Below, piece after piece: positions 37,595-48,765 of a stretch of 64,000 nucleotides of DNA; the first letter of the stretch is position 1, and the number at the start of each line of letters is the position of its first letter. Position numbers and translations under genes: made by a program. The DNA is from Micromonospora purpureochromogenes. GTDB lineage: Bacteria > Actinomycetota > Actinomycetes > Mycobacteriales > Micromonosporaceae. Under the pieces are notes generated by a model, which saw only the letters and a list, made by a program, of their open reading frames with translations, did no database searches and had not been told where the DNA came from. The DNA lies in the NCBI RefSeq assembly GCF_900091515.1, contig NZ_LT607410.1, forward strand, positions 4,712,001 to 4,776,000. Reading direction: 5' to 3'.

Positions 37595-38098
37595 GTGATC
37601 GAACAGCCGGCGTACACCGGGTTCGGGTTCTCCGACGAGGAGTGGGGGCTGCTGGTCGGCCTGCCGCAGGCGGTCCTGACCGCGGCCAGCGCCGCGGAGC
37701 ACGACGGCAGCCGGCGCACCCGCGCGGAGAACGCCGCCGGGCTGGAGACCATCTCCGCCGGCCGCGAGTCGGCCAACCCGCTGGTCGCGGCGGTCGCCGG
37801 GGAGATCGTGTCCCGGGTGGGCGACCCGGAGGCCGGCGAGGAACTGCCGGTCATCGAGCCGGCCGACCCGCAGGCCCTGATCGACGACGTGCTGGCCCGG
37901 GCCGGCCAGGCGTCGGCGCTGCTGGCCGCCCGGGTGGACGAGGGCGAGGCCGGGGCGTACAAGCACTGGCTGGTGGAGATCGCCGAGCAGGTGGTCGGCG
38001 CCGCCGCCAGCGGCGGCCTCCTCGGCCTCGGCGGCGACCAGGTCAGCGACTCGGAGCGGCGCTTCCGCGACCGGCTCTCGCACGTGCTCAACGACTGA
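37595..38098 (+). CDS. Conserved hypothetical helical protein
   Basis: A 167-residue, acidic, alanine-rich protein (FGFSDEEWGLLVGLPQAVLT; HWLVEIAEQVVGAAASGGLL; FRDRLSHVLND) predicted all-helical and soluble. I do not recognise a family with confidence. GTG 37595 with GAGAGGGG upstream. It follows the helicase gene by 49 bp and may be co-transcribed. Confidence 0.75.
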   Translation: MIEQPAYTGFGFSDEEWGLLVGLPQAVLTAASAAEHDGSRRTRAENAAGLETISAGRESANPLVAAVAGEIVSRVGDPEAGEELPVIEPADPQALIDDVLARAGQASALLAARVDEGEAGAYKHWLVEIAEQVVGAAASGGLLGLGGDQVSDSERRFRDRLSHVLND

Positions 38099-39257: not shown

Positions 39258-39399
39258 TTCCGAACCGGCGGTCGGCAGGCCCGTGCCGGCCACCGGTAAC
39301 GGGGGACCGTGGTGGCGCCCGTGACCTCCTTGTCACGGGCGGCCGCCCCGGTTGCCGCGCGGACGGCCCGCCACCGCCAGCCACCCGGCCACACCGATT

Positions 39400-39442: not shown

Positions 39443-40426
39443 TCAGGCCTCCTCCAACAACTCCAGGACCGTCCGCTCGGCCTCGGGCTTCGGGGTGTCC
39501 GGCCGGACCGGCGCCACCACCCCGTCGTGGTAGAGGTCGACCACCCGTGGGTCCACATAGGACGTCCGGGCCACCGTGGGGGTGTTGCCCAGCAGCTCGG
39601 CGACCTCCTTCATCACCCCGGCGACCGCCTTCTTCCGGGCGGTGGCGGACCGCTGCACGCCCACGGTGGCCAGCTCCGTCGCCGCGAGCACCGTCGCGTG
39701 CCAGGTGCGGAAGTCCTTGGCGGTCATCTCGCCCCCGCTGGCGTCGCGCAGGTACTCGTTGACCTCGTCGCTGCGCACGTCGCGCCACTGCCGCCCGTCC
39801 CAGTAGCCGAAGAGGCGGTCCTCCGTCCGCCGCCGCCGGCGCAGGTTGGTCAGCACCTGGCACAGCTCCGCGTCCTCGATCCGGCGGACCTGTTCGATGC
39901 CGCCCTTGGCGGGGAACTCGAAGACCACGCAGCCGCCCTTCGAGCGGGCGTGCTCGGGGCGCAGGGTGGAGACCCCGAAGGTGGCGTCCTCGCCGACCGC
40001 GTACTGGTCGTTGCCGACCCGGAACATCCCCATGTCCAGCAGCCGGGCGACGGTGGCCAGCACCCGGTCCCGGTTCAGGCCCCGCCGGCCCAGGTCGTCG
40101 GCGATCCGCGCGCGCAGCACCGGCAGCCGGTGGGCGACCTCGAGCACGTGGTCGAACTTCGCCTCGTCGCGCTTGCGCCGCCACTCCGGGTGGTAGAGGT
40201 ACTGCTTGCGGCCGGCCGCGTCAACGCCGGTCGCCTGGATGTGCCCGTTCGGGTACGGCGAGATCCAGACGTCCTGCCAGGCGGGCGGGATGACCAGCTC
40301 GCGCAGTCGGGACAGTTCGTCGGGGTCGCGGACCGCCTCGCCCCGGGGGTCGAGGAACACCAAGCCCTTGCCGGCCCGGCGGCGCCCGTACCCCGCCCGG
40401 CCCGGATCACTACGCCGCAATCGCAC
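39443..40426 (-). CDS. DNA topoisomerase IB
   Basis: A 327-residue poxvirus/eukaryote-like type IB topoisomerase: GLVFLDPRGEAVRDPDELSR, IPPAWQDVWISPYPNGHIQA, TGVDAAGRKQYLYHPEWR, active-site region with KDFRTWHATV and catalytic Tyr in TSYVDPRVVDLY. It relaxes supercoils through a 3'-phosphotyrosine. GTG 40426 overlaps the upstream GT9 gene by 17 bp, so it is read as the last gene of the glycan operon, an unusual location. Confidence 0.93.
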   Translation of the reverse strand: MRLRRSDPGRAGYGRRRAGKGLVFLDPRGEAVRDPDELSRLRELVIPPAWQDVWISPYPNGHIQATGVDAAGRKQYLYHPEWRRKRDEAKFDHVLEVAHRLPVLRARIADDLGRRGLNRDRVLATVARLLDMGMFRVGNDQYAVGEDATFGVSTLRPEHARSKGGCVVFEFPAKGGIEQVRRIEDAELCQVLTNLRRRRRTEDRLFGYWDGRQWRDVRSDEVNEYLRDASGGEMTAKDFRTWHATVLAATELATVGVQRSATARKKAVAGVMKEVAELLGNTPTVARTSYVDPRVVDLYHDGVVAPVRPDTPKPEAERTVLELLEEA

Positions 40427-41351
40427 CGGAGACCCGCACCGCCTCTTCGGCCTCTTCCACGGCGGCCAGCACCCGGTCCACGGGCAGGGCCGCCACCGTC
40501 GGGTGGCTTCCTACCCCGGGCCGGCCGGGCCAATCCCGCGCGCCGCTCCACAGCACCCGGTGCCGGGACCGGTCCGGCGGCGGACCCCACTCGGCCGGCG
40601 GGACCGGGCCGAAGAGCAGCACGGACCCGGTGGCGTAGGCGGTGGCGAGGTGGCCGACCCCGGTGTCGCCGCTGACCACCAGGCGGGCGTGGGCGACCAG
40701 CGCGGCCAGCTCGCCCAGGTCGGTCCGGCCGGCCAGGACGGCGGAGTCGGGCAGACCCGCCCCGGCGGCCACCCGACGCGCCAGCTCCCGCTCGTCGGCC
40801 GAGCCGGTCACCACCACCCGGTGGCCGCGCTCGGCGAGGGTCCGGGCCAGCGCGGCGAAGCGCGCCGCCGGCCAGCGCTTCTCGGGGATCTTGCTGCCCG
40901 GGTGGACGACGGTGACCCCGGTCGGCGCCCGGTCCGCCGCCGGCCGGCGCAGGGCGAGGTCGCCGGGGTCGGCGGGGATGCCGTACCAGGCCAGCAGGCG
41001 GCACCAGCGGTGCACCTCGTGCTCCCCGGGACGCCACCGCGGGCCGTCCGGGTGGCCGGCCTCGGGGCAGCGGAACGCCAGCAGCCGGCCCGCGCCGGCC
41101 AGCATCCGGTGCGAGTCGGGCCCGCGCCCGTGCAGGTTGACCGCGACCGGCGGGGGCGGCCACGGCGGGGAGCCCAGGCCGTCGGTGGGCAGCAGCCGGT
41201 CGACGCCGCCGACCAGGTCGACCAGCGGCCCGAGCCAGGCCGGCGCCGCCAGCACCAGTTCCCGGTCGGGGTACGCGGCCCGCAGCGCGCGCAGCGCGGG
41301 CACCGCCGTGGCCAGGTCGCCCACGCCGAGGGCGCGGAGCACGAGGATCAC
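40410..41351 (-). CDS. GT9-family (heptosyltransferase-like) glycosyltransferase
   Basis: A 313-residue GT9 protein, the family of ADP-heptose:LPS heptosyltransferases. N-terminal VILVLRALGVGDLATAVPAL and donor-site TVVHPGSKIPEKRWPAARFA plus VVSGDTGVGHLATAYATGSV are typical. With hldE and gmhA next to it, an ADP-heptose donor is plausible. GTG 41351 overlaps the SDR stop as GTGA. The acceptor is unknown; Gram-positive envelopes have no LPS. Confidence 0.88.
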   Translation of the reverse strand: MILVLRALGVGDLATAVPALRALRAAYPDRELVLAAPAWLGPLVDLVGGVDRLLPTDGLGSPPWPPPPVAVNLHGRGPDSHRMLAGAGRLLAFRCPEAGHPDGPRWRPGEHEVHRWCRLLAWYGIPADPGDLALRRPAADRAPTGVTVVHPGSKIPEKRWPAARFAALARTLAERGHRVVVTGSADERELARRVAAGAGLPDSAVLAGRTDLGELAALVAHARLVVSGDTGVGHLATAYATGSVLLFGPVPPAEWGPPPDRSRHRVLWSGARDWPGRPGVGSHPTVAALPVDRVLAAVEEAEEAVRVSGAIAA

Positions 41352-42046
41352 GGGTACGAGGTCTCCTGCTCGGCGCAGACCACCATCTCGCGTACCGCGC
41401 AGCCGGGCGGCTGGGAGAGGGCGAACATCACCGCAGCGGCGGTGTCGCCCGGCGCGTTGAGCTTGGCGTCCGGGCCGGGCCGGTACTGCGGGTCGCGCTC
41501 GTCGAAGAAGGCGGTGCGCATCCCGCCGGGGATCAGCAGCGTCACGTTCACCCGGCCGGCGAGTTCGGCGGCGAGCGCCCGGGTGAAGCCGACCACCCCG
41601 AACTTGGCCGCGCAGTACGCGGTGGCGTCGCTGACCGCCTTCACCCCGAGGGTGGAGGCCACCGTGACGATCCCGCCCCGGGACGCCTCCAGGTACGGCA
41701 GCGCCGCGCGGACCACCGCCACCGTGGCGAGCAGGTCGACCGCGACGATCCGCTCCCAGGTCTCCCGGGGCACGTCGGCGAGCTTGCCGGGCACGTCCAT
41801 GCCGGCCGCGGTGACCACCGCGTCGAGGCCGCCGGAGCGCTCGGCCAGCTCCCGGGTGGCCTCCTCGGCGGCCCGGGTGTCGGCCAGGTCGCACTCGATC
41901 CAGGGCACCCCGTCACCGGGGCGCTGCCGGTCCAGCACCAGCGGCCGACCGCCGGCCCGGGCCACCGCGGTGACCACCGCCGCGCCGAGCCCGCTCGATC
42001 CGCCGGTGACCAGGACGATCGGGCCGGCACCCGGTGCACTGCTCAT
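41348..42046 (-). CDS. Short-chain dehydrogenase/reductase
   Basis: A 232-residue classical SDR: cofactor motif VTGGSSGLGAAV, catalytic Ser in VTVASTLGV and YxxxK in AYCAAKFGVVGFT. Too short, and of the wrong class, to be the extended-SDR epimerase HldD; its role in the operon, perhaps oxidation/reduction of a sugar or nucleotide sugar, is open. ATG 42046 overlaps the hldE stop as ATGA. Confidence 0.88.
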   Translation of the reverse strand: MSSAPGAGPIVLVTGGSSGLGAAVVTAVARAGGRPLVLDRQRPGDGVPWIECDLADTRAAEEATRELAERSGGLDAVVTAAGMDVPGKLADVPRETWERIVAVDLLATVAVVRAALPYLEASRGGIVTVASTLGVKAVSDATAYCAAKFGVVGFTRALAAELAGRVNVTLLIPGGMRTAFFDERDPQYRPGPDAKLNAPGDTAAAVMFALSQPPGCAVREMVVCAEQETSYP

Positions 42047-43554
42047 CGCGCTCCCTCCGCCGTCGGACGCTGCGCACCGGCTGCCCTGGCGGCGCCGGTC
42101 GGTGCGGCGCGGTACGCCCCGGGGCGCTCGCCGCGGGCCACCGCGATCATGTCGGTGGTGGAGCGCCCGTCCAGGTACGGCACCACCACCGAGTGCCCGC
42201 CCCAGCGGCGCAGCGCCTCGGCCTCCGGCAGGCTCGCCGGGTCGCCGCCGCCGGTGGCGTAGTCGCCGCCCTTGACCCAGATGTCCGGGCGCAGCCAGCT
42301 CAGCACCGCGTCCGGGGTGGACTCGTCGAAGACCAGCACCGCGTCGACGCAGCTCAGCGCCGCGAGCAGCCGGCTGCGGTCGCCCTGCGGCACGACCGGG
42401 CGCTCCGGCCCCTTTAGCCCGGCGACGCTGGCGTCGGAGTTGAGGCAGACGATCAGGCAGTCACCGAGCTGCCGGGCGGCCTGCAGGGTCGCCACGTGCC
42501 CGGCGTGCAGCAGGTCGAAGCAGCCGCCGGTGGCGACCACGGTGCCGCCGGCGGCGCGTACCTCGGCCACCACCGCACCGGCCGCGGCGGCCCCGATCCG
42601 CTCCCCGCCGCCGCCCAGTGGCACCGGTGCGGCGGCGCGGACCTCGGGCGGCAGCGCGGCCGCCACTCCCCCACCGGCCACGTACGCCGACGCCTCCGCC
42701 ACCGCCTCCTGCACCGCCTCGGAGACCAGCGCGCCCCGGGCCAGCGCGAGGCTGGCCGCCGAGGCGAACCAGTCCCCGGCCCCGCAGGTGTCGCCCTCGG
42801 CGTTGACCGGGGCCGCGACCACCAGCGGGGTGGCGCCGGCGTGGCAGAGCAGCGCGCCGTCGCCACCCAGGGTCACCGCCACCGCGCCGGCCCGCCACCG
42901 CTCGCGCAGCCCCTGCGCGCCCCTGGAGGCGGTGGCCAGCCGGGACGAGCCCGGCGGGACCTCGGTCAGGTCGCGTACCTCCGCCTCGTTCGGGGTGGCC
43001 AGGGTGACCCCGGGCACCGCCGCCGGTCCGCGCGGGTGCGGGTCCCAGACCACCGGCGCGCGGGTCGCGGCGAGCGCCGCGCGCAGCGCCGGCTGCCGGG
43101 TGACGCCCCGGCCGTAGTCGCTGACCAGCACGGCGGACGCCTCGGCGATCAGCCGGAGCACCGCCTCGCTCGGCGGCCCGGGGTCGGCGGCCGCCCCGCC
43201 CCGGTCGTGGCGCAGCAGCACCCGGCCGCGGGCCCGCAGCCGGATCTTCTCCGCGGTGGCGCCGGGCAGCGGCAGCGCGTACACCTGCACGCCGGCGGCG
43301 CTGAGCAGGCAGCTGAGCCGGGCGCCGCCGGCGTCGTCGGCGAGCGCCGTCACCAGCGCCACCTCGCCGGCGCCCTGGGCGGCGGCGAAGACCGCGGCCA
43401 GGCCGGCGCCGCCGGGGCGGTCGGCGTACGTCGTCTCGTCGAGCACCGGTACGGGTGAGTCCGGGCAGAGCCGGTTCACCACGCCCTCGACGTCGCGGTC
43501 CAGCAGGGTGTCGCCGATGACCACCAGGGGTCCCCGCACGGCCGGCCGCCTCAT
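42043..43554 (-). CDS. hldE: Bifunctional heptose 7-phosphate kinase / heptose 1-phosphate adenylyltransferase HldE
   Basis: A 503-residue fusion. Residues 1-310 are a ribokinase-like kinase (VIGDTLLDRDVEG; GAGD at 258-261 with catalytic Asp261). Residues 335-480 are a nucleotidyltransferase with GCFDLLHAGHV (HxGH at 350-353), LNSDASVAGLKGPERPVVPQ and DIWVKGGDY. It phosphorylates D-glycero-D-manno-heptose 7-phosphate at C1 and then makes ADP-heptose after GmhB action. Both halves look intact. Start overlaps gmhA stop as ATGA. Confidence 0.93.
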   Translation of the reverse strand: MRRPAVRGPLVVIGDTLLDRDVEGVVNRLCPDSPVPVLDETTYADRPGGAGLAAVFAAAQGAGEVALVTALADDAGGARLSCLLSAAGVQVYALPLPGATAEKIRLRARGRVLLRHDRGGAAADPGPPSEAVLRLIAEASAVLVSDYGRGVTRQPALRAALAATRAPVVWDPHPRGPAAVPGVTLATPNEAEVRDLTEVPPGSSRLATASRGAQGLRERWRAGAVAVTLGGDGALLCHAGATPLVVAAPVNAEGDTCGAGDWFASAASLALARGALVSEAVQEAVAEASAYVAGGGVAAALPPEVRAAAPVPLGGGGERIGAAAAGAVVAEVRAAGGTVVATGGCFDLLHAGHVATLQAARQLGDCLIVCLNSDASVAGLKGPERPVVPQGDRSRLLAALSCVDAVLVFDESTPDAVLSWLRPDIWVKGGDYATGGGDPASLPEAEALRRWGGHSVVVPYLDGRSTTDMIAVARGERPGAYRAAPTGAARAAGAQRPTAEGAR

Positions 43555-44243
43555 CCCGCCTCGACCCGCCGGTCGCCGCCGTCGAGCACCACCTCGACGC
43601 CGGTGCGCACCGGCGCGCCGGGCCGCTCGACGGTGGCCGGACCGGCCGTCCCGGCCACCGCCAGCGCCGCCGGCAGGGCCCGGTCGACGTACTCGCAGAG
43701 CACGTGGGTGGAGACCAGGTGCAGCTCCTGCACCACCTGGCTCTCCGGCGAGGCGATGGCGAGCGTGTCGTGGCAGGCCTCGGCGAGCGGGTTGGGCGCC
43801 GGGCCGGTGAACGCCCAGCAGCGCAGCCCGACCTCCCGGCCGGCACGGGCGGCGGCCAGCAGGTTGGCGCTGGCCCCGCTGGTGGACATCAGCAGCAGGA
43901 TGTCGTTCTCCCGGCCGTGCGCGCGGACCTGGCGGGCGAAGACCTCGTCGTAGCCGTAGTCGTTGCCGATCGCGGTCATCGCGGAGGTCTCCGCGTGCAG
44001 CGCGATCGCCGACAGCGGCTGCCGGTCGTCGCGGAGCTTGCCGACCAGTTCGGCGGTGAGGTGCTGGGCCTCGGCCGCGCTGCCGCCGTTGCCGGCGACC
44101 AGCAGCCGGCCCCCGCCGGCCAGCGTGGCGGCCAGTTCGGTGCCCCAGCGGGCGAGCTGCTGCTCCGAGGACCGGTACGGCAGCAGCGCCTCGGCCAGCA
44201 GGGTGAGGTGCGCGTCCAGCAGCCCGTCGGTGGCCGTGGTCAT
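43551..44243 (-). CDS. gmhA: Phosphoheptose isomerase GmhA (SIS domain)
   Basis: A 230-residue SIS protein that converts sedoheptulose 7-phosphate to D-glycero-D-manno-heptose 7-phosphate. The substrate/zinc motif VAGNGGSAAEAQHLTAEL has His61 and Glu65; SAIALHAETSAMTAIGNDYG, LLMSTSGASANL and VVQELHLVSTHVLCEYVD (C-terminal zinc ligands Gln/His) also match GmhA. A C-terminal extension of about 35 residues is extra. ATG 44243 overlaps the upstream stop by one base (TGATG). Confidence 0.92.
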   Translation of the reverse strand: MTTATDGLLDAHLTLLAEALLPYRSSEQQLARWGTELAATLAGGGRLLVAGNGGSAAEAQHLTAELVGKLRDDRQPLSAIALHAETSAMTAIGNDYGYDEVFARQVRAHGRENDILLLMSTSGASANLLAAARAGREVGLRCWAFTGPAPNPLAEACHDTLAIASPESQVVQELHLVSTHVLCEYVDRALPAALAVAGTAGPATVERPGAPVRTGVEVVLDGGDRRVEAG

Positions 44244-45460
44244 CAGGCGACCACCCGGGTCGGCCGGCGCACGGCGGCCACCTCGCCGTACAGCTCCGCC
44301 AGCCGCTCGGCGGTGGTCGACCAGGAGTAGCTGCGCCGGGCGCGTTGCAGCGCCGCGGTGGCGTAGCCGAAGCGGCGGATCCGGTCGTCGAGCAGGCGCT
44401 GGATCGCCGTGCCCAGGGCCTGCGGGTCCCTGGCCGGGACGAGGTCCCCGGTCACCCCGTCGACCACGGTGTCCTTGATCCCGCCCACGGCGGTGCCGAC
44501 CACGGGCACGCCGCAGGCCATCGCCTCCAGCGGGGTGAGCCCGAACGGCTCGTACCAGGGGGCGGCGACCAGCACGTCGGCGGAGCGGTACCAGCGCCCC
44601 ATCTCCTCCCGGGGCACCGCGCCGACCAGCCTGACCCGGTCGGCCACCCCACAGGTGGTGGCGAGGGCGCGCAGCCGGCGGGCGTACGGGTCGGTCTCCA
44701 GCAGGCCGGCCGGCGGGCCGCCCACCACCACGCACTCGGCGTCGGGCACCAGGGCCATCGCCCGGATCACCGTCTGGAAGCCCTTGCGTTCCACCAGCCG
44801 CCCGACGGTGAGGATCCGGGGCCGGTCGGGCTCCCGCTCGGCGGCCGGGCCGAGCGGGGCGAAGCTGGCGAGGTTGACCCCGGACGGCACGACGGTCATC
44901 CGCGAGCGCGGGACGCCGAGGCGGACCAGCTCGCCCACCTCGTCCTGGCACTGCGCGACCACCCGGTCGACCGCGCGGCCCAGCTCCCGCTCGTACGCGA
45001 TCCGCCGCGCCGGGCTGGTGTCCTGCACGCCCTGGTAGCGCCGCTTCACGGTGCCGAGCGCGTGGTACGTCTGCACCACCGGCACCCCGGTCTGCCGGCT
45101 GGCGGCCAGCGCGGCGAGCCCGCTCATCCAGAAGTGCGCGTGGATCACCTCGGGCACCCAGTCGCCGCCGCGCCACCGCTCCACCAGCCAGCCGCTGAAC
45201 TCCTTCATGTGCGGCAGCAGCGCGTCCTTGGCCAACGGCTCGGCCGGACCGGCCGGTACGTGCACCACGTCGTACCCGTTCGGGGCGCGGACGGTGACCG
45301 GCAGGTCGACCGCGTCGCGTCGGGTGTAGACCCGGACATCGTGCCCGGCGGCCGCCAGCGCGGCGGAGAGCTCCGCGACGTGGGTGTTCTGCCCACCGGC
45401 ATCCTCACCGCCCAGGATGGCGAGCGGGCTGGCGTGCTCGGAGATCATCGCGATGCGCAT
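44243..45460 (-). CDS. GT4-family glycosyltransferase
   Basis: A 405-residue retaining glycosyltransferase: ISEHASPLAILGGEDAGGQN, QTYHALGTVKRRYQG, donor site LTVGRLVERKGFQTVIRAM and E-x7-E in YEPFGLTPLEAMACGVPVVG. The N-terminus resembles sucrose-phosphate-synthase/MshA-type GT4 proteins. GGAGGAGG precedes ATG 45460. Acceptor and donor unknown; operon position suggests assembly of the same heptose-containing glycan. Confidence 0.9.
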   Translation of the reverse strand: MRIAMISEHASPLAILGGEDAGGQNTHVAELSAALAAAGHDVRVYTRRDAVDLPVTVRAPNGYDVVHVPAGPAEPLAKDALLPHMKEFSGWLVERWRGGDWVPEVIHAHFWMSGLAALAASRQTGVPVVQTYHALGTVKRRYQGVQDTSPARRIAYERELGRAVDRVVAQCQDEVGELVRLGVPRSRMTVVPSGVNLASFAPLGPAAEREPDRPRILTVGRLVERKGFQTVIRAMALVPDAECVVVGGPPAGLLETDPYARRLRALATTCGVADRVRLVGAVPREEMGRWYRSADVLVAAPWYEPFGLTPLEAMACGVPVVGTAVGGIKDTVVDGVTGDLVPARDPQALGTAIQRLLDDRIRRFGYATAALQRARRSYSWSTTAERLAELYGEVAAVRRPTRVVA

Positions 45461-46419
45461 ACTTCCTCCTCCAGCAGGCGGTCCCAGTCGGCGAGGAAAC
45501 GGTCCAGGCCGTAGCGGGCCCGGGCGGCGGTGCGCGCCTCGGCGCCGGCGCGGCGGGCCTCGGCGGGTTGCGTGACGAACCGCCCCGCGGCCTCCAGCAG
45601 CGCGTCCACCCGGGTGGAGAGGGCGCCGGCCCCGGGCGGCACGGCCTCGACGGCCTCGGTGGTGGCCAGCGCGACGACCGGCATGCCCATCGTCATGGCC
45701 TCGATCAGGCTCAGCCCCAGCGACGTCCACCGGCACAGGTGCAGGTACGCCCGCCGCCGCGCCAGCTCGGCGTGCATCCGGTGCTGCGGCACGTCGTCGT
45801 GGCTGACCAGCCGGTCGGCCGGGAGGCCGAGGTGTTCGGCGAGCCCGGCGACCTTCATGCCGAACACGTCCAGCGGGGCGATCTCGGCGAAGCGGGACAG
45901 CAGGTCGGTGCCGGTGACCCGCCAGCGGCGTACCGGCTCGTTGATGACGACGGCGAGCCGGTCCAGCTCGCCGGTCCACTGCACCGCCGGCGGGACCACC
46001 CCGTGCTCGACCACGGCGGTGCGGGTGCCGCCGTTGTCCCAGAACAACTCGTTGAAGTGCGTGACGTGGGTGAGCAGCAGGTCGTCCCGGTCGGCCATCG
46101 GGTGGCGGGTGTTGGGCACGTCGCCCTTGGGGGTGTTGTGCTCGACGTAGATCGCCGGCAGGTCCCGGCCGGTCCGCCGGCCCAGCCAGTCGCAGGCCAG
46201 GTCCATCTCCTCGGGCCGTTGCAGCAGCACCACGTCGACCTCCTCCCGGCGCAGCTGCTGCGGCGTGACCTCCACCGCGCTGTCCGGCCAGGGATAGGTG
46301 CGGGCCCGGCCCAGCCCGTACGGGCCGCGGTCGGGGGTGACCGGCACCAGGTAGCGGTGCTTGCCGTGCACGAACGAGGTGGTCCAGGAGCCGTGCACGT
46401 GCCACACCAGGATGTTCAT
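45445..46419 (-). CDS. Glycosyltransferase, GT4-like
   Basis: A 324-residue protein beginning MNILVWHVHGSWTTSFVHGK, with IYVEHNTPKGDVPNTRHPMA and C-terminal LCRWTSLGLSLIEAMTMGMP, an E-x-M variant of the GT-B donor site. The sugar is unknown. It overlaps the next gene by 16 bp and the previous one as ATGA, so it is firmly part of the operon. Confidence 0.85.
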   Translation of the reverse strand: MNILVWHVHGSWTTSFVHGKHRYLVPVTPDRGPYGLGRARTYPWPDSAVEVTPQQLRREEVDVVLLQRPEEMDLACDWLGRRTGRDLPAIYVEHNTPKGDVPNTRHPMADRDDLLLTHVTHFNELFWDNGGTRTAVVEHGVVPPAVQWTGELDRLAVVINEPVRRWRVTGTDLLSRFAEIAPLDVFGMKVAGLAEHLGLPADRLVSHDDVPQHRMHAELARRRAYLHLCRWTSLGLSLIEAMTMGMPVVALATTEAVEAVPPGAGALSTRVDALLEAAGRFVTQPAEARRAGAEARTAARARYGLDRFLADWDRLLEEEVCASR

Positions 46420-48116
46420 CGGGCGCTCCCGCCGCCGGCGATCACCGGATCGATGCCGACGGTGGCCGGCGCCGCGCCCGGCGGGGGCGCGTCGGCGGGT
46501 ACCCCGAGCAGGCGTACGGCCGCCAGGACGTGGCCCGGCTCGACGGCGGACAGGCAGGGGTGGCCGGGCACCGGGCAGCGGGTGGCCCGGGTGTCCCGGC
46601 AGGGCGCGGCGGCGTCGCCGAGGCGTACCGCCGGCACCCGGTACGGCCCCCACTGTCCGAACGGGACGGTGGGGGCGAAGAGGCTCACCACCGGTACGCC
46701 CAGCGCGGCGGCCAGGTGCGCCGGGCCGGTGTTGCCGACCACCAGCGCGCCGGCGTCGGCCAGCACGGCGGCGAGTTCCGCCAGACCGGTCCGCCCGCCC
46801 AGGTCGACGCCGGTGTCGCCGGCCACCCGGGCGGTCAGCTCCGCCTCGTCCGGGCCGCCGGTGACCGCCACCCGGTGGCCGGCCGCGGTGAGCACCCGGA
46901 CGATCCGGGCGGCCAGCTCGGGCGGGCAGGCCCGGGTCTGCACCGCCGAGCCGGGGTGCAGCACCACGTAGCCGGGGCGGCCGAGCCTGGCCGGCGCGGG
47001 CGGCAGCCGGTCGGTGCGGATGCGCAGCGCCGGGTCGTCGGCGGCCGGGAGCGGGAAGCCGGCGGCCGCCGCCAGCGAGAGCGCCCGCTCGGGCTCGGGC
47101 AGCCCGTCCGGCACCCGGTGCCGGACGTCGAGCAGCGCGCCCGGGTAGTCGTCGCTGATCGCGCTGACCCGGGGCACGCCCGCCATCCGCAGCAGCAGCG
47201 CGAGCGGGAGCGGTGACTGGTGGAAGGAGGTGAAGACCACCGCCTCGTCGGCGCGCACCGCGGCGAGGCGGTCGGTGAGCCGGCGGATGTCGTGCGGGTC
47301 GACCGGGGCGGGGTCGCCGTCGATCCAGGGCAGGGGCCATTCGACGAGTTCGTCGACGCCGGGCAGCAGGGCGGCGGCGTGCCGACCGCGTGGCCCGTGG
47401 AGCAGGACGACCCGGTCGGCTCCGGCGGCGACGGCGCGGACGGCCGGGCCGGTGACCAGCACGTCGCCGGCCGAGTCGCTGCGGACGACGAGCACGGTGC
47501 CGGCCCGGCGGGGCGCGCTGGGGCGCAGCGCGGCCTGCCGCCGGAGGATCTCCTCGATGGCCGCCGGCAGGTCGCGGGCGACGTGCGGGGCGGCGGCCAC
47601 CTCCTCGGGCCGGGTGACCGGGGTGGGGACCAGCAGCCCGGTGGCGCCGGCGGCGAGCGCGGCGGTCAGGTCCCGGCCGATGTCACCGACCAGCACGCAC
47701 CGGGCGGGCGTGGTGCCCAGCGCGGCGGCGGCCCGGTGGACCAGGCCGGGGGCGGGTTTGCGGCAGGAGCAGCCGTCGCCGTCGTCGTGCGGGCAGACCT
47801 GCCAGGTGTCGAACGGGCCGAGCAGGGCCTCGATCCGGGCGTGCACCGCCCGCAGCTGCGCGGCGGTGAACAATCCCTTGGCCAGCCCGGACTGGTTGCT
47901 CACCACGCCGAGGCGCAGGCCGGCCGCGCGCAGCCGGTCCAGCGCCGCCCGCGCGCCCGGCATCGGCCGCACCTTCTCCGGGTCACCGTTGTACGGCACG
48001 TCCTCGACCAGGGTGCCGTCCCGGTCCAGCAGCACCGCGTCGAACAGGACCGGCCGGATCACGGCCCGGTCGACGGCCGGGTCGACCCGGCCTGACCTGC
48101 GCTGATCCGGCTCCAT
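46416..48116 (-). CDS. Fusion of heptose 1,7-bisphosphatase (GmhB-like HAD) and GT9 glycosyltransferase
   Basis: A 566-residue protein. Residues about 25-190 are a GmhB-type HAD phosphatase: DRDGTL with Asp31/Asp33, VVSNQSGLAKG, zinc loop Cys108-x-His110 ... Cys116-x-Cys118 followed by KPAPGL, and Asp145 in LVGDIGRDL. Residues about 206-545 are a GT9 domain: VVRSDSAGDVLVTGPAVRA, VVLHPGSAVQTRACPPELAA and VVGNTGPAHLAAALGVPVVS. It would supply heptose 1-phosphate and use the later ADP-heptose. ATG 48116 is chosen; ATG 48170 in frame is possible. Neither start has a strong ribosome site. Confidence 0.88.
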   Translation of the reverse strand: MEPDQRRSGRVDPAVDRAVIRPVLFDAVLLDRDGTLVEDVPYNGDPEKVRPMPGARAALDRLRAAGLRLGVVSNQSGLAKGLFTAAQLRAVHARIEALLGPFDTWQVCPHDDGDGCSCRKPAPGLVHRAAAALGTTPARCVLVGDIGRDLTAALAAGATGLLVPTPVTRPEEVAAAPHVARDLPAAIEEILRRQAALRPSAPRRAGTVLVVRSDSAGDVLVTGPAVRAVAAGADRVVLLHGPRGRHAAALLPGVDELVEWPLPWIDGDPAPVDPHDIRRLTDRLAAVRADEAVVFTSFHQSPLPLALLLRMAGVPRVSAISDDYPGALLDVRHRVPDGLPEPERALSLAAAAGFPLPAADDPALRIRTDRLPPAPARLGRPGYVVLHPGSAVQTRACPPELAARIVRVLTAAGHRVAVTGGPDEAELTARVAGDTGVDLGGRTGLAELAAVLADAGALVVGNTGPAHLAAALGVPVVSLFAPTVPFGQWGPYRVPAVRLGDAAAPCRDTRATRCPVPGHPCLSAVEPGHVLAAVRLLGVPADAPPPGAAPATVGIDPVIAGGGSAR

Positions 48117-48247
48117 CTGGTCCCGTCGCACGGGCGGCGGGTTCCCGGAGCCCCGGGGAGTAAACATCATCTACCCGGCGGTACGGCTCGTCGCCGTCCC
48201 GGCCGCGCAGCGGTCGCCGACCCGGCCTTACCCGTCGCCCCGGAGAA

Positions 48248-48277
48248 GCTAACGCCCGGTCCGACCCGCCGGTTAGC
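48248..48277. promoter_or_regulatory. Inverted repeat in the divergent glycan-operon/SRPBCC region
   Basis: GCTAAC (48248-48253) and GTTAGC (48272-48277) are complementary 6-bp arms 18 bp apart; the right arm overlaps the -35 element of the SRPBCC promoter, so a bound regulator could control that gene and perhaps the divergent operon. Confidence 0.4.
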
Positions 48278-48306: not shown

Positions 48307-48765
48307 GTGGCGATTGTGGAGAAAGTGATCGACGCTCCCCCCCAGCAGGTGTTCGACGTGCTGGCGGACGGGTGGACGTACAGCGACTGGGTGGTCGGGA
48401 CCGTGCACGTGCGGGACGTCGACGACAGCTGGCCGCGGGTGGGCAGCCAACTGCACCACAAGGCGGGGCCGTGGCCGCTCTCGTTGCAGGACTCCTCGAC
48501 GGTGCTGGCCTGCGAGCCGCCGCACAAGCTGGTCATCAAGGCCGGGCTCTGGCCGGCCGGTGAGGCGATCGTGGTGTTCACCCTGGATCCGGTCGGCGCC
48601 GACGCCACCCGGGTGCGGATCGGCGAGGACTTCGCCGCCGGGCCGCTGCGCTGGATCCGCAACAAGCTCAACGACCTGGTTCTGCACCAGCGCAACAAGG
48701 AGACCCTGCGGCGGCTCGCCGACATCGCCACCCGCCAGAAGGCGGACGAGGCCGCGGAGAGCTGA
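48307..48765 (+). CDS. SRPBCC-family protein
   Basis: A 152-residue START/SRPBCC fold protein: VEKVIDAPPQQVFDVLADGW, TVHVRDVDDSWPRVGSQLHH and VRIGEDFAAGPLRWIRNKLN. These bind hydrophobic ligands; this subgroup has no assigned ligand. GTG start with no ribosome site. It precedes the mannosyltransferase-like GT2 gene by 82 bp. Confidence 0.87.
   Translation: MAIVEKVIDAPPQQVFDVLADGWTYSDWVVGTVHVRDVDDSWPRVGSQLHHKAGPWPLSLQDSSTVLACEPPHKLVIKAGLWPAGEAIVVFTLDPVGADATRVRIGEDFAAGPLRWIRNKLNDLVLHQRNKETLRRLADIATRQKADEAAES

Follow-up and report, generated by a model that had tools for sequence, protein, structure and literature searches.

The cwg operon of Streptomyces coelicolor was reportedly described by Hong, Paget and Buttner in 2002. 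In the accessible parts of later papers it appears as a 12-gene operon predicted to function in cell wall glycan synthesis, partly sigma-E dependent and induced by vancomycin (PMC6767563). The product names given there for SCO6179-6190 are transferase, transferase, dehydratase, and transferase for cwgB, C, D, and E, and transferase, phosphoheptose isomerase, bifunctional synthase/transferase, and transferase for cwgG, H, I, and J, respectively (PMC5839063); cwgE is also called a putative heptosyl transferase (PMC5882110), and a deacetylase is listed for SCO6178, which lies beside cwg (PMC6767563). Here we compare with it an operon in a 64,000 nt stretch of the Micromonospora purpureochromogenes genome (the window; G000:C1:4712001-4776000 in a 6.67-Mb single-contig genome). 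It seems quite likely that this operon is the Micromonospora form of the actinobacterial cwg operon and makes an envelope glycan from nucleoside diphosphate (NDP)-heptose; domains, motifs, gene content and order, conservation, duplication, spread, and a control element are read from the sequences, and the substrates, the sugar product, the nature of the glycan, its acceptor, and its place in the envelope are inferred. As a variant of an operon type that is known but unsolved, the operon has some structure of its own and is not a new kind of system. What is new is an operon without the carbamoyltransferase and GT2 genes of its relatives, a paralog that keeps both, the variety of GmhB fusions, an 83-bp element over the first start codon, and a GRSTT motif in HldE.

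Organization of the operon

The operon occupies the minus strand from about position 48131 to 39443 of the window (coordinates below are window positions, minus strand unless noted) and contains eight genes in the order GmhB-GT9 fusion, GT4a, GT4b, GmhA, HldE, short-chain dehydrogenase/reductase (SDR), GT9, and type IB DNA topoisomerase (TopIB). All seven junctions, read on the window sequence, are overlaps: 4 bp (ATGA) at GmhB-GT9/GT4a, 16 bp at GT4a/GT4b, 1 bp (TGATG) at GT4b/GmhA, 4 bp at GmhA/HldE, at HldE/SDR, and at SDR/GT9 (GTGA), and 17 bp at GT9/TopIB. Overlap coupling of this sort is ordinary in actinomycete operons. Each of the eight assignments is backed by a Pfam match, and NCBIfam gives the same kind of protein for most of them, with no match for the topoisomerase. 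An earlier note on this DNA had described eight genes with seven overlapping junctions, and its coordinates, strand, and domains all agree with our re-check except for the operon's beginning, which it had put at 48116. The ATG there is not conserved, but all 39 of 39 aligned rows have a GTG at 48131, so translation of the first gene may start at 48131, the start that we favor.

Probable heptose biosynthesis and glycosyl transfer

By sequence, all four ADP-heptose steps (isomerase, heptose kinase, phosphatase, and nucleotidyltransferase) are encoded. GmhA (43551-44243) is of the sedoheptulose 7-phosphate isomerase type by Pfam and NCBIfam, and matches the solved phosphoheptose isomerase 1tk9 at 1.3e-40. 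HldE (42043-43554) joins a heptose 7-phosphate kinase to a heptose 1-phosphate nucleotidyltransferase and carries the motifs GAGD, HAGH, and GRSTT; its N-terminal half matches the heptose kinase 4e84 (2.6e-17), its C-terminal half matches 5x9q, named as a putative cytidylyltransferase (4e-34), and its nearest named relative is that of Micromonospora halophytica (88-89% identity). The kinase and nucleotidyltransferase motifs (GAGD and HxGH) are kept in all 75 HldE proteins compared. The first gene (46416-48131) fuses a phosphatase of the D,D-heptose 1,7-bisphosphate 7-phosphatase type (GmhB, a HAD protein), which matches 3l8h (putative HAD hydrolase) and 4pnh (heptose bisphosphate phosphatase), to a GT9 domain. 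Eleven HldD-type epimerase matches were found in the genome, none over the 274.6-bit cut-off (the best has 113.7 bits), whereas 2 of 14 control genomes have one that passes it; the sugar formed should therefore be the D,D-heptose. GmhA, the HldE kinase, GmhB, and the HldE nucleotidyltransferase would together convert sedoheptulose 7-phosphate to NDP-D-glycero-D-manno-heptose.

The nucleotide of this sugar is most likely ADP, and possibly CDP or UDP as well. According to the accessible part of Tang et al. (PMC11573728), (F/L)XXGRSTT is a hallmark of heptose nucleotidyltransferases that accept several NTPs. GRSTT is present in 62 of the 75 HldE proteins, the first motif position being F in two and L in none; the window protein has YLDGRSTT, which includes the motif arginine and departs from the strict motif in its first residue. 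The nucleotide may thus not be ADP alone. The ADP-heptose-type biosynthesis proposed in the earlier note is well supported by the four encoded steps.

The separate GT9 protein (40410-41351) is heptosyltransferase-like and has the GD motif. Aligned to WaaC, it keeps a K and a D at what we take to be the donor-site positions of that enzyme. All five GT9 matches in the genome fall within its three hldE loci, which supports the earlier note's heptose inference. GT4a (45445-46419) is a glycosyltransferase of the GT-B type matched by PF00534 in its C-terminal half only (5.7e-8), and GT4b (44243-45460) is a GT4 enzyme related to MshA (251.8 bits, under the 462.5 cut-off) and to the Tll1590 protein, with structure matches to 6kih (Tll1590) and 3c48. 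The SDR (41348-42046) is a classical short one, its S-Y-K residues read by eye, and is not an HldD epimerase. The heptosyltransferase is most likely the downstream GT9 protein; further residues would be added by the two GT4 enzymes and by the GT9 fused to GmhB, on an acceptor at the cytoplasmic face that is destined for the cell envelope, and the SDR may modify a sugar of the glycan or of its precursor.

The third hldE locus (L085 9078-10958; G000:C1 ~24.1-26.0 kb) has an HldE-like gene of 626 aa whose kinase-domain match is in two pieces ~110 aa apart; it adjoins a GT2 gene and a convergent GT9 gene.

Comparison with known systems

A run of twelve genes, as many as in S. coelicolor cwg, is found in the Streptomyces locus L071; the last two are GT2-like by eye. 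Seven of the eight cwg product names fit the gene kinds of this run directly; "dehydratase", the name at the GmhB position, can be matched only if it is read as a HisB-like label. The window and four Streptomyces loci (L067, L071, L075, and L083) have in common the ordered block GmhB, GT9, GT4a, GT4b, GmhA, HldE, GT9, and by the partial cwg product names the same order holds for the GmhB position, a GT9 (cwgE), two glycosyltransferases, cwgH, cwgI, and cwgJ. In the window, however, GmhB and GT9 are fused (they are separate in the four Streptomyces loci, which have no SDR), and the SDR gene precedes the last GT9. With L071 standing for cwg, the window operon also lacks the leading epimerase-type gene, the carbamoyltransferase, the GT2, and the two trailing GT2-like genes, has the SDR and TopIB genes in addition, and has a different upstream element.

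The Gram-negative lipopolysaccharide (LPS) pathway (GmhA, HldE, GmhB, HldD, and WaaC/WaaF) begins with the same steps and uses a GT9 with the WaaC donor-site residues. The window genome differs in having no HldD over the cut-off and in combining its genes in one operon with GT4 and SDR genes. No LPS acceptor is expected in a Gram-positive organism, which agrees with the earlier note's expectation of some other acceptor. Septacidin is a case of heptose use in an actinomycete, and no metabolite cluster was seen beside the window operon. The available part of the paper that treats septacidin as a heptose natural product also covers the STTR5-motif NDP-heptose enzymes (Tang et al., PMC11573728), with which the window HldE shares the didomain kinase/nucleotidyltransferase build and the arginine of GRSTT, but its first motif residue is Y rather than F or L. 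Bleomycin-type sugar tailoring, considered as a possible nearest kind, was dropped since the literature search gave nothing usable on it.

Relatives, paralogous operon, and distribution

The best 80 of 470 contig stretches encoding a relative were compared, together with a paralogous locus of the same genome (L084); 40 of these loci are of the window type, 14 of the paralog type, and 27 belong to other lineages. As the earlier note had proposed to check, gene order is conserved: by gene calling, 34 of 40 window-type loci have the core seven genes unbroken and in the same order. The six exceptions are L011 (a contig end), L066 (a broken draft locus), and four Salinispora loci; the apparent absence of GT9 and TopIB from the latter is a gene-caller artefact, since tblastn finds both genes in all four, which then join the 34. 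The window's overlaps, counted from the starts picked by the gene caller, are kept in 36/38 window-type loci at GmhB-GT9/GT4a, 28/38 at GT4a/GT4b (16 bp), 29/38 at GT4b/GmhA (1 bp), 22/38 at HldE/SDR, and 34/35 at SDR/GT9. Those at GmhA/HldE and GT9/TopIB are mostly not kept as called (the 17-bp GT9/TopIB overlap in 5/34), but for HldE and TopIB of the window itself, too, the starts chosen by the caller are later ones.

A second operon lies on the opposite strand of the same genome at ~4.95-4.96 Mb, about 0.2 Mb from the first, in the order carbamoyltransferase-GT2-GmhB/GT9-GT4a-GT4b-GmhA-HldE-SDR-GT9. It keeps the carbamoyltransferase and GT2 genes that the window operon lacks. A carbamoyltransferase gene was called in none of the 40 window-type loci, in 20 of the 27 other-lineage loci, and in 8 of the 14 paralog-type loci, the remaining six of which have under 5 kb of sequence upstream of their match. 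Among 121 Micromonospora genomes, a near-full-length window-type HldE (at least 76% identity) is present in 107; of the 14 others, G010, G100, and G111 have a distant match only, and the rest have partial or weaker ones. Paralog-type HldE (65-70% identity) is found in at least 24 of the 121, all 24 of which also have a window-type match (one partial, at a contig edge), and the paralog's carbamoyltransferase in 29. Fourteen genomes have the two types on the same contig, where they are in opposite orientation, 168-211 kb apart in 13, the exception being G065.

In a tree of the 75 HldE proteins, those of the Micromonosporaceae group together (99/98), the paralogs form one clade (100/100), and the window type joins Actinoplanes weakly (83/54). 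Two Actinoplanes loci (L049 and L050) are flanked by an aldehyde dehydrogenase gene and, at the opposite end, by TopIB, as in the window region, and still have the carbamoyltransferase and GT2 genes. Taken with the tree, these flanks indicate that the window operon is probably the vertically inherited copy, which has lost both genes. It is conceivable, though doubtful, that Micromonospora species with both operons have two heptose-glycan pathways side by side, the paralog giving a carbamoylated heptoside and the window operon, with its private single-copy element, an uncarbamoylated envelope glycan, and that these Gram-positive cells contain NDP-heptoses with different nucleotides.

The operon type is not confined to Micromonospora: besides the agreement in order with S. 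coelicolor cwg, an HldE match (E ≤1e-60; HldE genes counted, not operons) occurs in 72 of 296 genomes of the class and 35 of 105 genera, Micromonospora included. Depending on the genus, GmhB stands alone or is joined to GT9 or to GT2. Among 28 more distant loci, 11 have an epimerase gene, which we take from its motifs to be UDP-xylose-synthase-like (the best NCBIfam match of that in L075 is dTDP-glucose dehydratase, under cut-off), and six have a UDP-glucose-dehydrogenase-like gene; one scanned locus has a polysaccharide pyruvyltransferase.

Three further observations concern these genes. In Blastococcus (L081 4645-6141) the phosphatase is part of a GT2-GmhB fusion, in place of the window's GmhB-GT9. 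A second carbamoyltransferase match in the window genome (G000:C1:4468355-4468858) lies away from the three hldE loci. In G088, contig 407 has a carbamoyltransferase gene 5.6 kb 5' of a window-type HldE, with the match to the upstream element on another contig; this could reflect recombination of the two operons or misassembly.

Upstream element and regulation

An 83-bp candidate control element (48087-48169) spans the GTG at 48131. Its column entropy is 0.16-0.39 bits, as against 0.84 at third codon positions of GmhB. A 29-base pattern taken from it occurs, with up to three mismatches, exactly once in each of 116 of the 121 Micromonospora genomes, and the reversed control pattern never matched. 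A profile of the element has matches in 38 of the 40 other window-type loci (weak in L034), the two without (L004 and L025) both being cut at the first gene; in the paralogous loci it gave no significant match (best E 0.23). The element is single-copy before the window-type operon in Micromonospora and Salinispora, and G100 and G111 have it with no near window-type HldE match, through gene loss or an assembly gap. About 100 bp further upstream is a second motif (48220-48276; TAAC ... GTTAGCTTCTC ... GGGTA), in which GTTAGCTTCTC was matched in 9 of 10 loci looked at, L034 being the exception.

Coding constraint was considered and rejected as the cause of this conservation: variant codons in 34 rows are 9 synonymous and 48 nonsynonymous, the reverse of what protein constraint would give. 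Evidence for RNA structure in the leader is weak and mixed. No Rfam family reached its gathering score in the window (the top match for the leader region, E 0.01, falls short of that score and is on the opposite strand), RNAalifold found zero pairs changed on both sides, and single-sequence folding z-scores range from -2.2 to +2.0 across eight species. In favor of structure, a hand-drawn 5-bp hairpin covering the GTG has 86.7% of its cells paired, compared with 17-63% when slid. Of 37 distinct rows, 17 have C-G and 8 have U-A at one of its pairs, and in the other 12 that pair is broken; given how closely related the species are, this is weak support. The element may be either one that works at the DNA level or a small start-codon hairpin.

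The sigma-E motif AAC-N16-18-CGTC was sought within 400 bp upstream in 76 loci, and compared with shuffles in the 71 that have at least 100 bp. It was found in 8 of 37 window-type loci (3.65 expected), 0 of 10 paralogous loci (0.75 expected), and 2 of 24 loci of other lineages (3.0 expected). Seven of the eight window-type matches, the window's included, are one shared site that lies in the window inside the divergent gene (48331-48353), and both other-lineage matches are within carbamoyltransferase coding sequence. One looser match, AAC-N17-CGTT, is present in the window but in no other window-type locus. The tested Streptomyces loci do not have the motif either and so cannot serve as a positive control.

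What the operon may make

A cwg-type operon for an NDP-heptose envelope glycan is suggested by the four heptose steps, the confinement of GT9 to the hldE loci, and the lack of an HldD over cut-off. The conserved core order and the fit of L071 to cwg, described in the consulted part of PMC6767563 as a vancomycin-induced sigma-E target, argue for it as well, as do the epimerase, dehydrogenase, and pyruvyltransferase genes of distant loci and the GmhB fusions, with GT9 here and GT2 in Blastococcus.

Several points weigh on the other side. The match to cwg is one of gene order and product names, the S. coelicolor sequence not having been compared, and the divergent neighbor of L071 looks by eye like a hemerythrin protein, whereas a deacetylase is listed beside cwg. 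The scan gave no evidence for sigma-E control of the window operon, as the counts are no higher than chance in Streptomyces and other distant loci and the shared site is, in the window, inside the divergent gene; regulation thus does not link the operon to cwg. No flippase, ligase, or lipid-carrier transferase gene is in the operon. Our literature search on SCO6179-6190/cwg found no product structure, which is not proof that there is none, and no glycan has been isolated. None of the operon proteins reached an NCBIfam equivalog cut-off among the matches listed, so names below the family level are inferred, and the fused GT9 half has R and N at the WaaC K and D positions, so its donor may differ.

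The operon might instead make a heptose-bearing specialized metabolite or glycolipid, as in septacidin, rather than a wall polymer; we consider this unlikely. The absence of export and polymerase genes from the operon would suit such a product, as would the solved-structure relatives of the paralog's carbamoyltransferase, which include TobZ, GdmN, and a novobiocin enzyme. These three enzymes tailor antibiotics. ADP-heptose also serves bacterial natural-product synthesis, according to the part of PMC11573728 consulted. On the other hand, the operon is near-universal in the genus (107/121) with the same order across families, none of the seven neighbors scanned is a polyketide synthase or nonribosomal peptide synthetase gene, and cwg in Streptomyces responds to vancomycin (PMC6767563, in part). 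Still less probable is a drift of the enzymes in specificity to a different sugar, with no manno-heptose formed. The sub-cut-off equivalog matches and the changed donor-site residues of the fused GT9 would fit such drift, but the genes for the four steps are still found in the company of GT9 genes, and GAGD and HxGH are invariant in the HldE proteins. An NDP-heptose envelope glycan is thus the product that we favor.

The topoisomerase and the 3' end

The final gene (39443-40426) encodes a type IB DNA topoisomerase, whose GTG start at 40426 is supported by the similar N-terminus of the Actinoplanes homolog in L050. The earlier note had counted it in the operon, and it is indeed a steady neighbor: gene calling places it after GT9 in 33 of 40 window-type loci, and tblastn adds the four Salinispora loci; it was called in 0 of 14 paralog-type and 2 of 27 other-lineage loci, and tblastn found none in 10 other-lineage loci. 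Being stable in the window lineage but rare elsewhere, it is probably a passenger, and a function in the pathway, for example linking envelope synthesis to DNA state, is highly improbable despite the 17-bp overlap and this steady position, given its rarity in the paralog-type and other-lineage loci.

The perfect 12-bp hairpin that the earlier note placed after the operon is a real inverted repeat (39400-39411/39431-39442, with a 19-nt spacer), which starts at the base after the TopIB stop and is terminator-like with no T-run. A second inverted repeat of 10 bp (39316-39341, no strand assigned) lies between the convergent genes. A 151-nt stretch with nearly all of the 12-bp repeat and the 10-bp repeat folds better than all of 200 shuffles. 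As neither repeat has a T-run, terminator function, though likely, is putative. Beyond them, a plus-strand gene (37595-38098), called in 33 of 40 window-type loci, encodes a protein without a Pfam match.

Significance

The cwg product is termed predicted, putative, or tentative in the accessible parts of PMC6767563, PMC5839063, and PMC5882110. The present comparison ties cwg to an actinobacterial heptose operon, and the minimal, near-universal Micromonospora version offers a compact genetic target through which the glycan could be identified. If the proposed function is right, Gram-positive actinobacteria would regularly use NDP-heptose, which is an ALPK1 ligand, as an envelope precursor.

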